The notes under the pieces were generated by a model. It saw only the letters and a program-made list of their open reading frames with translations, was not told the origin of the DNA and did not search any database. A stretch of 64,000 nt of DNA from Lactovum miscens (GTDB lineage: Bacteria; Bacillota; Bacilli; Lactobacillales; Streptococcaceae). The position numbers and the translations under genes are program-made. Below, in pieces: positions 32,688 through 63,410 of the stretch. Within the stretch, counting starts at the first letter, position 1. The number at the start of each line of letters is the position of its first letter. The DNA lies in assembly GCF_014202895.1 (NCBI RefSeq), contig NZ_JACHHV010000001.1:1-64000 (forward strand), given 5' to 3'.

Positions 32688-33626
32688 TTATTTTGTTGCA
32701 GTAATGATGGCATTAGTATAAAGTGATAATTCTTTTTGGCTAGCAGTTGGCCCCGAAAAGAAATATACTTTGTTATAATCCATACTCACGATATGGCCTT
32801 TTTTCACTGCATTAAGATTTTTCCAAGTTGGGTTATTTTCCAAAGCAGTAAATTGAGCTTGATCCGCGGCGGCATAGTCGACAAATATATAATCTGCATC
32901 AAAGGAAGCCAAGCTTTCAGCATTCACTTCTGCATAACCAGTTCCTTTAGAAAGGCTTTGCATTTTCTCAGATTCCTTAAAACCTAGACCAGTCGTGAGT
33001 GCTTGACCGCCACGAGCAAAGTTGTCACCATAAGCATATATTTTTCCTCCTTGAAGTTCCAACAATGAAATTGTGGTTTTGCTTGGCTTTATACCCGCTT
33101 TACTTAGTATAACTTTTTGTTCATTTGCTGATTTTGTGAAGGCTTTTTTAAATGTTGCTTCTTCTGATTTTCGGTTGAGTAACTTCGCAAAATAATCAAG
33201 AGACTTATTCATACTTGAAAGTTCTTGGTAATTAACCAATACCGTTGGAGCGATTTTTTGATAATCAGCTACTTGGTCTTTATCAACAGTGATTATCAAA
33301 TCTGGCTTTTGTTCAATTAACTTTTGCAAGTTAAATTTTGGAGCACCCAAGTCAATCATATTTTTCTTTTGATTGCTTGAAAGATAGGGATTTGGGAATG
33401 CCCATGAATCAGTACCAATTACATTTGCGCCAAGTGATGCGACTTCATCCGGATAATTTTGAACAGCAATACGTTGTGGTTTTGCTGGAATTTTAATTTT
33501 TCCATTGAGGGCTTGAAAAGTGACCATTTTTGAGCTAGTTGTTGATTTTGAAGATGTTTGGCCAGCGCAAGCGGTGAGAATCAATAATGTCGCTATGGCG
33601 ATCATTGTGCTAAATACTTTTTTCAA
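32688..33626 (-). CDS. fhuD: Siderophore ABC transporter substrate-binding lipoprotein (FhuD-like)
   Basis: Captures ferric siderophore outside the membrane. The signal peptide ends in the lipobox LTAC, with Cys20 the predicted lipidated residue. The body has PQRIAVQNYPDEVASLG, LIEQKPDLIITVD and ADYIFVDYAA, typical of the helical-backbone metal-receptor family. Length 312 aa is normal. It lies 79 bases after the second permease gene in a C-B-G-D order. Hydroxamate specificity is inferred from family resemblance; catecholate or heme cannot be excluded. Confidence 0.85.
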   Translation of the reverse strand: MKKVFSTMIAIATLLILTACAGQTSSKSTTSSKMVTFQALNGKIKIPAKPQRIAVQNYPDEVASLGANVIGTDSWAFPNPYLSSNQKKNMIDLGAPKFNLQKLIEQKPDLIITVDKDQVADYQKIAPTVLVNYQELSSMNKSLDYFAKLLNRKSEEATFKKAFTKSANEQKVILSKAGIKPSKTTISLLELQGGKIYAYGDNFARGGQALTTGLGFKESEKMQSLSKGTGYAEVNAESLASFDADYIFVDYAAADQAQFTALENNPTWKNLNAVKKGHIVSMDYNKVYFFSGPTASQKELSLYTNAIITATK

Positions 33627-33705: not shown

Positions 33706-34644
33706 TCAAACTTTTTGAATAAGGTAAATATAATATGGAGCTCCAATAAAAGCCACTACAATCCCAAGAGGCAAACTTGAGGGGGCAAGCATGATCTGAG
33801 AAAGAATATCTGAAAATACTAGAATTATCATTCCCGATAAAAGGGTGGCTGGTATTCTCCGTCTTGATTTAAATCCTACCAATTCCCGAGCGATGTGTGG
33901 CGCAATCAGTCCAATGAATGCCAAGCCACCAACTAACAGTACGGCAATCACTGAGAAAAAAAGTGCTAATCCATAGAGCTGAAGTTTAGTCTTATTAACC
34001 TGAAGTCCAAGACTCATTGCCATTTCCTCACCTAATGAAAGAATCTCAATCTTCTTTTGGAAGAAGGGCAAGATTATAAAGGCAATCATAAGTAAAAGTA
34101 GACACAACCACAAATATGTCAAATCGGTTTGCCATACATCACCGGATAGCCAGACAACAACATTTTGAAAATCAAAGCTGTTAACAGACAATTGTGCCAA
34201 ACTAATAAGAGCTTGAAAAAAGGCAGTGATGGCAACTCCTGTCAGCAATACTCGTAAAGAGCTAGCATTTTTTCGAAGGGCAAAGGCATAAAGCAACACA
34301 AAGGCAAGTATTCCTCCAAGTAAAGCAAAAATCGGATAGGAAAAAATCCAAAAAGTACTTAACTTCAATTGAGTTGAGAAAAGCAGGAATCCAAGCGCCC
34401 CAGCACTCGCTCCTGAGCTTATGCCAAGCGTTGCACTATCTGCTAAGGGATTGTCCGTGACCGCCTGAATGATGAAACCTGCCATTGAGAGGGCCGCCCC
34501 AGCAGCAAGCACAACTAACAACCTTGGCAAACGAAAACTTGGAATCAAGATTGACAATATCTGCCTGTCGCTAGAAAATTGCGTTAGATCAATTACAGCC
34601 AAGAAAAACAACACAAAGATTAAAATAACGAATCTCTTCTTCAT
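33706..34644 (-). CDS. fhuG: Siderophore ABC transporter permease (FhuG-like)
   Basis: FecCD/BtuC-type permease with about 9-10 membrane helices. It contains AAGAALSMAGFIIQAVTDNPLAD near the N-terminus (the conserved GxxQxxxxNPLA region). GLIAPHIARELVGFKSRRR near the C-terminus is the ATPase-coupling loop. Length is 312 aa. It overlaps the other permease gene by four bases. Confidence 0.88.
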   Translation of the reverse strand: MKKRFVILIFVLFFLAVIDLTQFSSDRQILSILIPSFRLPRLLVVLAAGAALSMAGFIIQAVTDNPLADSATLGISSGASAGALGFLLFSTQLKLSTFWIFSYPIFALLGGILAFVLLYAFALRKNASSLRVLLTGVAITAFFQALISLAQLSVNSFDFQNVVVWLSGDVWQTDLTYLWLCLLLLMIAFIILPFFQKKIEILSLGEEMAMSLGLQVNKTKLQLYGLALFFSVIAVLLVGGLAFIGLIAPHIARELVGFKSRRRIPATLLSGMIILVFSDILSQIMLAPSSLPLGIVVAFIGAPYYIYLIQKV

Positions 34645-35591
34645 TTTGCCTCCTTAGCGATAATCCAAAGGAAAAATGGCGCACCAAGTAACATGGTTAA
34701 ACTTCCCGCCGGAAATTCATAAGGCTTAAACATATTTCTGGCAGCCAGATCAGCCAAAAGTAATAGTAGAGTACCTGCTAAGGCTGACAATATAATCGTT
34801 TGCCAAAATTTTGAGCGAGTAAAGCGTCTGGCAATGTGTGGGGCAATTAATCCGACAAAGCTAATGACACCAACAGTCGAAACTGTCACACCAGAGGCCA
34901 GTGCCACCAAAATCATGATAACTATCCGAACGCGGTTGACCGAAACTCCTAATGAAGTTGCCATCTCATCCCCCAATCCCAACATTTGGACAGGTCGAGC
35001 AAAAAATATGAGTAAAACTAGGAAAATAACACTCACAATAGCCATAAGTAAAACTTTCATATTAGTTAGTCCAGAAAATGAACCGACAATCCATAAAAAA
35101 TATGCTTGACTACGATGGCTTGAAAAAGTCAAAGCACTAGCCAGACTTGTTGCAAATAGACCAACCGAAGTTCCAACAAGAATAACTTTGAGGGGGTGAA
35201 AATGTGTTCTTGCCGTTAAAATCATTACAATGGAAAGTACTAAAAAGGCACCAATTGCAGCTGCTAATGTTGACAAAGTCCCATTAGTAGTAAGACCTAA
35301 TGTCAGTAATAATGATAAGGCAAAGCTTGCACCACCAGATATTCCTAAAGTGGACATTTCTGCTATTGGGTTATGTGTCATTATCTGCATCAAATAACCA
35401 CTTACCGATAATAAAAAAGCCGTGAAATAAATACCTAACAAGCGAGGCAAGCGTAATTGCAAGATGATTTTGTTGCTCATTATTTCAGATAAACTATAAT
35501 TTTTATTGCCTAAGAGTAAAAAGAGTACTGACAAAAGTAGAACCGTTAAAAGCAGGATAAAAAATACCAGAGTGAATCGTTTTTTAGCCAC
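34641..35591 (-). CDS. fhuB: Siderophore ABC transporter permease (FhuB-like)
   Basis: Second FecCD-family permease, which would pair with the FhuG-like subunit to form the channel. It has SGYLMQIMTHNPIAEMSTLGI and GLIAPHIARRFTRSKF, the equivalent conserved blocks. At 316 aa it is one domain, unlike the double-length FhuB of E. coli. It overlaps fhuC by eight bases and fhuG by four. Confidence 0.88.
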   Translation of the reverse strand: MAKKRFTLVFFILLLTVLLLSVLFLLLGNKNYSLSEIMSNKIILQLRLPRLLGIYFTAFLLSVSGYLMQIMTHNPIAEMSTLGISGGASFALSLLLTLGLTTNGTLSTLAAAIGAFLVLSIVMILTARTHFHPLKVILVGTSVGLFATSLASALTFSSHRSQAYFLWIVGSFSGLTNMKVLLMAIVSVIFLVLLIFFARPVQMLGLGDEMATSLGVSVNRVRIVIMILVALASGVTVSTVGVISFVGLIAPHIARRFTRSKFWQTIILSALAGTLLLLLADLAARNMFKPYEFPAGSLTMLLGAPFFLWIIAKEAK

Positions 35592-36363
35592 CTTTTACTC
35601 CTGCAATCATCAAACTTTTAGTGAAACTGTCATTCCCCAAAGTTACTTCCAAACCAAAACATTCTTTCAGCTGAACTTCAGTGAAAAGTTTCTCAACCGT
35701 GCCTTCTGCAATAACTTCACCAGCTTTGAGCAAAACGAGATTGTCGGCAAAGCGAGCCGCATGATTCAGGTCATGAATCACATAAACCACCGTTTTTTTA
35801 TGATGATTGGTTAACTCCTTGAGTAAGCTAAGAATGTCCAGCTGGTGTACTAGGTCTAAATAAGTAGTTGGTTCATCCAAAAGGATAATTTCACTATTTT
35901 GCGCTAAAATCATGCTGATAAACGCACGTTGTCTTTGCCCCCCTGAAAGGCTTGAAACTTTAGTATCACGCATTTCCCAAACTTTTGTTTCACGCATAAC
36001 TTGTTCAACAAAAGTATTATCTTCGCTGCTCAATCCTTGCTGAAAAAGCTTCTGATGAGGAAAACGGCCTAAACTGACCAATTCAAGAACTGTGATATCT
36101 GCAGGTGCTTGAACTGATTGGGGTAGTAATGCCAATATTTGAGCAATTTGCCTATCCGTGCGAGCTGACAAAGGTTTATCTTCAAAAAGCACTTCACCTT
36201 CGAACTTAATTAATCGTCCCAAAGCTTTCAAAAGAGTTGACTTGCCTGAACCATTTAACCCTATGATTGCAGTAGTTTTTTCCTTCTCAATCGTGAGATT
36301 AACATTTTTCAATATCTGTTTTTTTCCATAAGACACTGCAATATTTTCGGCACCAAAATACAT
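35584..36363 (-). CDS. fhuC: Siderophore ABC transporter ATPase (FhuC-like)
   Basis: Energises the importer. Walker A is GLNGSGKSTLLK near residue 35; the ABC signature is SLSGGQRQRAF near 138; Walker B with the D-loop is EIILLDEPTTYLDLVHQ; the switch His is in YVIHDLNHA. Length 259 aa is normal. It is the first gene of the operon; transcription starts at the palindrome-containing promoter. Confidence 0.93.
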   Translation of the reverse strand: MYFGAENIAVSYGKKQILKNVNLTIEKEKTTAIIGLNGSGKSTLLKALGRLIKFEGEVLFEDKPLSARTDRQIAQILALLPQSVQAPADITVLELVSLGRFPHQKLFQQGLSSEDNTFVEQVMRETKVWEMRDTKVSSLSGGQRQRAFISMILAQNSEIILLDEPTTYLDLVHQLDILSLLKELTNHHKKTVVYVIHDLNHAARFADNLVLLKAGEVIAEGTVEKLFTEVQLKECFGLEVTLGNDSFTKSLMIAGVKGG

Positions 36364-36388
36364 ATTTCTTCCTTTAAAGAATTTTGAA

Positions 36389-36424
36389 AAGCTAATATGT
36401 AAAACATGTTTTACATATTAGCTT
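36389..36424. promoter_or_regulatory. 36-bp perfect palindrome at the fhu promoter
   Basis: Half-site AAGCTAATATGTAAAACA followed by its exact complement. It begins directly after the -10 of the fhuC promoter, covering the predicted start point and 5' leader. It could be a repressor operator, and in RNA it would form an almost blunt hairpin at the 5' end. Confidence 0.85.
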
Positions 36425-36453
36425 ATTATGTCACAAACTTAATTTAATTACAA
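36425..36453 (-). promoter_or_regulatory. fhuCBGD promoter
   Basis: On the minus strand TTGTAA (36453-36448), a 17-base spacer, and CATAAT (36430-36425) preceded by TG (extended -10). It reads straight into the palindrome. Confidence 0.7.
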
Positions 36454-36494
36454 GATAAAATTTCAAAATTCATAATTTTTTAAGGTAAAATGGC

Positions 36495-36526
36495 AATAAA
36501 AAAAGGATCACATAAATCCCTTTAAT
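36495..36526 (-). terminator. Terminator of the fab/acc operon
   Basis: On the minus strand AAAGGGAT / ATCCTTT (one bulged G), followed by TTTT, about 60 bases after accA. Confidence 0.65.
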
Positions 36527-36583
36527 AAACTGCTTATTCATATTACTTGCATGCAACAAAGCTTGATATTTATCTTCTAAAAG

Positions 36584-37339
36584 TTAATATTTTCTAAAAC
36601 GTGCATAACGGGCTTTTTGAAGTTCGTCTTTTGTCATCCCAGAAAGCTCTGAGAGGGCTTGACGAATTGTTGCAATAAGGTTTGCCTCCAAATTATCTTC
36701 GCCAATGATACCATCAATAATACTCATTTCAAGTAGCTTGTCAGAAGTCATCTTCATCAACTCGGCAGCCTCATCACGACGACTACCATCTTTCCATAAA
36801 ATGGTTGCAAAGCCTTCCGGTGAAAGCACAGAATAAACTGCATTTTCGAGCGCATAAACCTTATTTGCTACTGCCAAGGCCAAGGCACCCCCCGAACCAC
36901 CTTCACCAGTAATAAAGGTAATGATAGGAACGGTTAAATCGGACATTTCCATGAGGTTTCGGGCGATGGCTTCACCTTGGCCACGCTCTTCTGCTTCTAT
37001 ACCAGGATATGCACCAGCAGTATTGACAAAAGTGATAACGGGGCGACCAAACTTCTCGGCCTGTTTCATTAGGCGAAGAGCTTTTCGGTAACCATTTGGT
37101 GAAGGTTGACCAAAATTCGTTGCCAAATTTTCTTCTAAATTTTTTCCTTTTTGAATCCCAACGATGGTTACAGGCTGACCATCAAAACTGGCAATACCGC
37201 CAACAATGGCCTTATCATCGGAATATTGACGATCACCATGCAATTCAAAGAAGTCATCAAAGACATTATTTGCAATCTCACGCATGGAAATACGATCTGC
37301 TGCTCTTGCCTTTTTTATAATTTCAGAAATCTCAGTCAT
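36584..37339 (-). CDS. accA: Acetyl-CoA carboxylase carboxyltransferase alpha AccA
   Basis: Together with AccD transfers carboxyl from biotin to acetyl-CoA to make malonyl-CoA. It has [32 protein letters not shown]-type sequence ([18 protein letters not shown]) and [17 protein letters not shown]. The ATG at 37339 is preferred, with GGAGG eight bases upstream; it overlaps accD by eight bases. At 251 aa it is the short Gram-positive form. Last gene of the operon. Confidence 0.95.
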
Positions 37340-62124: not shown

Positions 62125-62454
62125 TTAACGAATCCCCAAAGCAATTCTTGCATAACGACTCATTTTATCGACTGTCCATTGAGGGTACCAAACAAGTTTT
62201 ACTTCAATATTTGTAACTTCTGGAACAGCCGTAAGAGCATCATGAATTTGGTCTGTTAACAAGTCAGCTAATGGACAGCCCATTGTGGTCAAGGTCATTC
62301 GAATCTCGGTATTCCCTGCATCATCAAAATCAATACCATAAACCAGACCAAGATTGATGATGTCAATTCCCAATTCTGGATCAATAACATTTTCTAGTGC
62401 GCCAAAAATACGTTCTTGAATGTCTTTTATTTGTTCTTCTGTATGTTCTGCCAT
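62125..62454 (-). CDS. DUF59/MIP18 family metal-sulfur cluster assembly protein
   Basis: A 109-aa protein of the SufT/PaaD-like family. It has VIDPELGIDIINLGLVYGID and the cysteine motif MTLTTMGCPLADLL, and ends with the basic VWYPQWTVDKMSRYAR. Family members help mature Fe-S proteins. It stands alone; no suf genes are in the window. Confidence 0.88.
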   Translation of the reverse strand: MAEHTEEQIKDIQERIFGALENVIDPELGIDIINLGLVYGIDFDDAGNTEIRMTLTTMGCPLADLLTDQIHDALTAVPEVTNIEVKLVWYPQWTVDKMSRYARIALGIR

Positions 62455-62584
62455 GTTTTATTACTCCAAAAAATCATTTTTAAAAAACTTAACCTAGCGT
62501 TCGTTTAGGCTGAGTCAGATTTGAGAAGTATACTTTATCTCTCATCTTTTGTAAAATCATTTTAACATTTTTTAATAAAAACAA

Positions 62585-63379: not shown

Positions 63380-63410
63380 AAAAAAAACAATCAGTCCTTA
63401 GACTGATTGT
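63380..63410 (-). terminator. Terminator downstream of tsaE
   Basis: On the minus strand a perfect 10-bp stem ACAATCAGTC / GACTGATTGT with a TAAG loop and an eight-T run. Confidence 0.9.

Follow-up and report, generated by a model that had tools for sequence, protein, structure and literature searches.

CylR2, the cytolysin regulator of Enterococcus faecalis, is a small repressor and binds across the promoter of its target, as described in the available text of PMC3709268. In peptide sensing, it works together with CylR1, which is presumed to be a membrane protein. In lactic acid bacteria, a regulon reconstruction in the accessible portion of PMC3616900 assigns the fhu, feoAB, and suf operons to PerR. 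In bacteria without Fur, the control of iron genes is still an open question. We analyzed a perfect 36-bp palindrome in front of an iron transport operon of the fhu type in Lactovum miscens, using the first 64,000 nucleotides of contig NZ_JACHHV010000001.1 (assembly GCF_014202895.1; hereafter the window) together with related genomes. From its sequence context, this palindrome most likely serves as a landing site for a little-studied small repressor, which appears to govern iron uptake and iron-sulfur (Fe-S) genes in lactococci and their relatives, several of these species having no Fur. We think it probable that the palindrome's 18-bp core is the operator of a CylR2-like XRE repressor with a W-C-x-K-Y-x-C (Cx4C) tail, which would sense iron or Fe-S clusters and block the fhu operon at +1. 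The initial annotation took the host for a lactococcus, which is right as to the Lactococcus family, but the genus differs from the named lactococci.

The palindrome, AAGCTAATATGTAAAACATGTTTTACATATTAGCTT at positions 36389-36424, is an 18+18 dyad without a mismatch and was the longest perfect palindrome in a scan of the 64-kb window that allowed loops of 0 to 4 bases. The runner-up inverted repeat of the same scan, at 63387-63410, has 10-bp arms and a 4-base loop. In 20 first-order Markov simulations of the window, arms never exceeded 13 bp, and 2.8e-6 palindromes of the 36-bp length are expected from base composition. A chance origin of the palindrome is excluded, and the unusual length ascribed to it in the initial annotation was confirmed. 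The span originally singled out (36389-36453) takes in a promoter as well as the palindrome. The extended -10 promoter proposed there was recovered on the minus strand, with TTGTAA, a 17-bp spacer, and CATAAT preceded by TG (9 of 12 consensus matches), and the first base of the palindrome directly adjoins CATAAT. Counted from this -10, +1 would fall inside the palindrome, near 36418, and the message would begin within the dyad. The palindrome sits between the end of an accA-like open reading frame (ORF) at 36584 and the start of a fhuC-like ORF at 36363, both on the minus strand. The operon behind it encodes a FhuC-like ATPase, two FecCD permeases, and a binding lipoprotein, that is, an ATP-binding cassette (ABC) iron-type transporter; its cargo may be a siderophore or haem.

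Comparison of the site with its relatives, as the initial annotation had suggested, revealed a conserved core of 18 bp with the common form TGTMAAA-N4-TTTKACA. This inverted repeat lies upstream of the fhuC orthologs of all five close relatives (FhuC identity, 56-77%); it is exact in four of them (G011 [Lactococcus taiwanensis], G019, G001, and G002) and carries a single mismatch in G021. FhuC-like loci at greater distance (L007-L030) had no exact core in their fetched flanks. When 94 distinct sites were compared, pairing of the arms was 0.55 beside the core and 0.40 at the fourth base, and from the fifth base outward it equaled background (expected, 0.29), with small rises at bases 9 and 10. 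The conserved unit measures 18 to about 24-26 bp. Since the arms pair at close to background rates past the fourth base, one dimer would suffice, and the suggestion that the palindrome accommodates two repressor dimers was not borne out. The broader proposal, a repressor-type DNA site over the putative +1 of an iron transport operon, is upheld by the retention of the core in relatives and its recurrence at iron genes.

The 9-bp outer extension and the perfect center are found at the window site only, among the 94 sites. These outer arms are an extra peculiar to this site, for which a 5' RNA hairpin and palindrome correction are the candidate explanations. As RNA, the dyad is strongly predicted to form a 16-bp stem (-19.5 kcal/mol; z, -7.4), in line with the nearly blunt 5' hairpin envisaged in the initial annotation as a possible stabilizer of the message. 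If the palindrome acted chiefly as RNA, either through a 5' hairpin protecting the fhu message or as an end signal for the acc operon, the outer arms, which are dispensable to an operator, would be accounted for. Such a role is very unlikely, since the core also occurs at sites with an unpaired center and at sites before the -10 or on the -35, and since the outer arms are unconserved. Moreover, no intrinsic terminator (a GC-containing stem followed by a T run) was found on the minus strand within 36200-36800, and the palindrome was rejected as an acc operon terminator for want of such a site. For the outer arms by themselves, and in full compatibility with an operator at the core, an imperfect palindrome may have been perfected without function by replication template switching. 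Quasi-palindrome correction is a known mutation route, and the confinement of the extension and the perfect center to this one site favors it; selection for a 5' hairpin is equally possible, and we hold the two to be evenly balanced.

The window's genome contains five exact copies of the motif, compared with one copy in the control. Four of them precede fhuC, XRE-feoA-feoB, sufC, and a pyruvate:ferredoxin oxidoreductase (PFOR) gene, so that the search for further genomic copies proposed in the initial annotation was rewarded; the fifth is intragenic. There were 10 copies with one mismatch (control, four in all at ≤1 mismatch), of which three fit the same pattern: one precedes a SufT-like gene, another again precedes the oxidoreductase, and the third lies between VIT1 and an HgdC-type activator. 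The other seven are at or within genes without a clear link. Searches allowing two mismatches were dropped as noisy (204 hits versus 167 in the control in one genome).

Across 117 Streptococcaceae genomes, 179 exact sites were counted, and neighbors were read for the 97 distinct sites that were listed. Their recurrent neighbors were sufT (11 sites), fhuC (8), XRE (7), feoA (7), lipoate ligase (lplA) (7), a LutA-like CCG protein (6), FecCD permease (6), PFOR (5), an FNR-type reductase (5), OsmC (4), and sufC (2), with gltB, DUF1858, HgdC-type, noxE, and cydA genes more rarely. The bulk of these genes concerns iron uptake, Fe-S assembly, Fe-S enzymes, and redox functions. A keyword list placed 83 of the 97 sites; it gave one false OsmC label and undercounted FecCD, and cluster counts were therefore used instead. 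The names of the HgdC-type activator, GltB, CydA, NoxE, OsmC, SufB, SufS, MetE, MntH, and most repeats were recognized by eye. Pfam and NCBIfam profiles were run on the window transporter; on single examples of XRE, FeoA, FeoB, SufC, PFOR, LutA-like, DUF1858, LplA, FNR-type, and VIT1 proteins; and on two SufT-like proteins. An exact motif also lies between a CydA-like and a small ribosomal-protein-like gene at G070:C67:60829 (L287) and G077:C46:105019 (L274). The CydA-adjacent copies hint at haem or respiration control.

The candidate regulator is encoded beside the motif. A small XRE gene separates the motif from fhuC in G011, G002, and G021, running into the start of fhuC; the gene heads the fhu operon in L. 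taiwanensis and Lactococcus cremoris and feoAB in the window's genome. There, at C9:30356, it is followed by feoA and feoB, and the motif starts 58 bp ahead of it at C9:30298. One clear ortholog was found in each of eight genomes. At loci L002, L005, and L006, the XRE ORF and the fhuC start overlap by ~70 nt in different frames, with the Cx4C tail and the FhuC N terminus sharing the same DNA. The protein has an HTH_3 domain of ~60 amino acids (PF01381; E value, 5e-13), and the best solved match of its profile was CylR2 (PDB 1utx; E value, 3.7e-17; profile positions 3 to 63).

An XRE ortholog scoring at least 120 bits was present in 37 of the 117 Streptococcaceae genomes, and all 37 contain the exact motif, compared to 10 of the remaining 80. 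The 37 genomes hold 167 motif copies (reversed control, 16) and the other 80 hold 12 (control, 11), a co-occurrence with a Fisher p value of 1.3e-21 when shared descent is ignored. The 120-bit line was set after the score gap had been seen (weakest kept, 122.6 bits; next, 74.6), and 53 of the 80 genomes below it still have weaker XRE matches at an E value of 1e-12. We judge a test in the wider family to be cleaner than this p value. In the 80 best named loci among 556 confirmed for the XRE family (594 kb, including some near-duplicates), which span Paenibacillus, Brevibacillus, Companilactobacillus, and many Clostridia, there were 87 exact motifs. Every one of them, spread over 64 of the 80 loci, lay ≤600 bp upstream of the XRE gene; the reversed pattern gave none. 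Nine of the 16 loci without an exact copy have a copy with one mismatch. Paired copies within these loci are spaced 43 to 47 bp apart. At L183 (Paenibacillus tyrfis), the same 18-mer, TGTAAAACATGTTTTACA, stands ahead of the XRE gene. Six inspected loci (L129, L135, L155, L166, L171, and L190) have a membrane-protein-like ORF of ~100 amino acids with a GDER motif preceding the XRE gene, and the exact motif lies ahead of that ORF in five of the six; no Pfam family matched the one such protein tested (L155).

These counts also bear on whether a different regulator reads the motif and the XRE gene is merely one of its targets. The evidence for XRE autoregulation is positional, and a good motif is missing before the gene in 7 of 30 Streptococcaceae orthologs, both of which favor that explanation. 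However, the motif counts track XRE presence over the 117 genomes, within the best 80 loci every exact motif precedes either the XRE gene or the two-gene operon containing it, with none elsewhere in the flanks, and another regulator would need to accompany XRE genes across Paenibacillus, Brevibacillus, Companilactobacillus, and Clostridia. We consider a different regulator very unlikely.

The start of fhuC in the window may preserve a trace of the same gene. In another frame, 36363-36319 on the minus strand reads KKYVFWCRKYCSVLWKK, near the XRE tail of L. taiwanensis (G011), DVFWCEKYQCVLWK; G019 and G001 retain only VFW at the same place. KKYVFWCRKYCSVLWKK is likely a remnant of the XRE C terminus. 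Given this tail-like shadow frame, an XRE gene probably once stood between the operator and fhuC, and the window palindrome would probably derive from the regulator's own operator, with the XRE gene now ahead of feoAB.

The published assignment of these operons to PerR raises the possibility of a PerR or Fur site, which we regard as hardly credible here. No Fur-family protein (PF01475) was matched at an E value of 0.001 in the window's genome (G000, 99% complete), nor in six of eight relatives searched. Neither a Fur nor a PerR box was matched at ≤3 mismatches within 36389-36453, and the motif is unlike either box; such a box was rejected, in keeping with the remark in the initial annotation that the site is not a standard Fur box. 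A DtxR/MntR-type regulator was also rejected, as the presence of the DtxR C-terminal domain (PF02742) does not track the motif, the domain being absent from G000-G003 and present in five of nine genomes searched. The published FhuR is the LysR-type CmbR and is not known to be related to this fhu operon.

The sequence W-C-x-K-Y-x-C-x-L near the C terminus was present in all 30 Streptococcaceae XRE orthologs read, out of 37; 26 of these had been preselected by the Cx4C pattern, and the four others read afterward have the tail too. Residues C74, C79, and H24 are invariant across 26 aligned orthologs. The Cx4C tail was absent from 71 XRE loci outside Streptococcaceae. Iron or an Fe-S cluster would be the probable ligand of this tail.

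In the mechanism that we propose, an XRE dimer on the 18-bp core would cover +1 just past the -10 and, by blocking RNA polymerase, keep the fhu-type operon from being transcribed. Further targets of the regulator would be feoAB, suf, sufT, several genes for Fe-S enzymes, and the XRE gene itself. Binding of iron or an Fe-S cluster by the tail would lead to repression when either is plentiful, and the repressor would be released when iron or Fe-S clusters are short or oxidized. We infer the binding of the XRE protein to the core, its ligand, and the sign of its response, alongside features that the genomes display directly: the motif and its recurrence, its link to the XRE gene, its position at promoters, and the invariant cysteines. 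By eye, the fhu, feo, suf, sufT, noxE, and XRE sites tend to lie a few bases past the -10, over +1. A -10-like hexamer ends 6 or 7 bases before the core in 26 of 84 site-gene pairs, and that of the window ends 10 before.

Published expression data agree with co-regulation of fhu with suf, feoA, or lplL. In the available text on Lactococcus lactis MG1363, fhuC, fhuD, fhuG, noxE, and nifU rise with oxygen and an Fe-S oxidoreductase falls (PMC4289295), and in that on Lactococcus garvieae 21881, a joint rise at 18°C is seen for fhu, suf, and an iron ABC system (PMC3817100). Heat survival of L. lactis KF147 is tracked jointly by fhu, suf, and lplL, and weakly by feoA over four strains, according to the accessible part of PMC5156439. 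The passages on these data in the three papers do not name the XRE regulator. Among the publications listed by literature searches, no title or abstract opening named the XRE protein as an iron regulator, which is weak evidence of novelty because coverage of subscription journals was limited.

Several observations weigh against the proposal of an XRE repressor at these sites. One of the five exact motifs of the window's genome is inside a coding gene (C2:83345), where it likely occurs by chance, and 14 of the 97 listed sites are at no listed target. The motif before the XRE gene itself is exact in 12 of the 30 orthologs and has one mismatch in 11; the remaining 7, including those of G019, G052, G058, G075, and G079, show 3 to 5 mismatches. 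L. taiwanensis (G011) and L. cremoris (G064) bear the motif and each have one Fur-family protein. AlphaFold models only the helix-turn-helix helices of the XRE protein and gives the tail a pLDDT (predicted local distance difference test score) of <50. At PFOR and LutA-like genes, the site coincides in part with a potential -35 rather than trailing the -10, and at several of these genes the 3' half places TTGACA at the presumptive -35. Oxygen lowers nifJ about 11-fold in L. lactis MG1363 while fhu rises, as stated in the available text of PMC4289295; the nifJ site of L. cremoris G064 has one mismatch. Given the -35 overlap and the opposite nifJ response, a single simple repressor is insufficient for all targets, and the opposite sign would reflect either a dual role of the XRE protein or a second regulator. 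More tentatively, and with rather more doubt than confidence, we suggest that in lactococci and related Streptococcaceae, several of them without a Fur-family match, iron and Fe-S homeostasis is run by a CylR2-type XRE protein that lost its membrane partner and gained a Cx4C tail as a direct sensor of iron or Fe-S, repressing where its site lies past the -10 (fhu, feo, and suf) and possibly activating where it lies at the -35 (PFOR and LutA-like genes).

Table 1. Positions of the palindrome, its putative control elements, and associated genes in the window
Feature	Position	Strand	Basis
Perfect palindrome, 36 bp	36389-36424		Dyad check, palindrome scan
Conserved putative operator core TGTAAAACATGTTTTACA (TGTMAAA-N4-TTTKACA)	36398-36415		Relatives and family sites
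-10 hexamer CATAAT with TG ahead	36425-36430	-	Promoter scan
-35 hexamer TTGTAA	36448-36453	-	Promoter scan
Outer arm, mirrors 36416-36424; unconserved elsewhere past ~4 bp	36389-36397		94-site comparison
Outer arm, mirrors 36389-36397; unconserved elsewhere past ~4 bp	36416-36424		94-site comparison
FhuC-like ABC ATPase	35584-36363	-	ORF and profile match
FecCD-family permease	34641-35591	-	ORF and profile match
FecCD-family permease	33706-34644	-	ORF and profile match
Substrate-binding lipoprotein, Peripla_BP_2	32688-33626	-	ORF and profile match
Motif copy, 1 mismatch, upstream of SufT-like (PF01883) gene at ~62125-62454 (-)	62550-62567		Motif scan

For iron gene control in Fur-less bacteria, these results supply a candidate regulator gene together with a putative 18-bp operator and a list of targets, all testable in one laboratory strain. 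If the proposal is true, small XRE proteins, which form a large family, would gain an assigned operator. Fur and PerR regulons comprise similar kinds of targets (iron uptake and Fe-S assembly), but the protein family and the motif differ. The logic also resembles that of IscR, SufR, and RirA, where suf and iron genes answer to a repressor with a possible Fe-S cluster. IscR, SufR, and RirA are of the Rrf2 or DeoR type, whereas the XRE protein belongs to HTH_3. The YozG-like XRE proteins of Clostridia and Bacillales share a related DNA-binding domain and have the same motif before their own genes; they differ in lacking the Cx4C tail (71 loci) and in having a membrane-protein-like ORF ahead (six inspected loci), an arrangement that recalls CylR1-CylR2. 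CylR2 itself has the closest solved structure to the XRE profile of the window's genome, and the XRE protein is proposed likewise to bind over target promoters. Unlike CylR2, it has no adjoining CylR1-like membrane partner in the window's genome, where by eye an enolase-like ORF precedes it and feoA-feoB follow, and it adds a Cx4C tail and would target iron and Fe-S genes.
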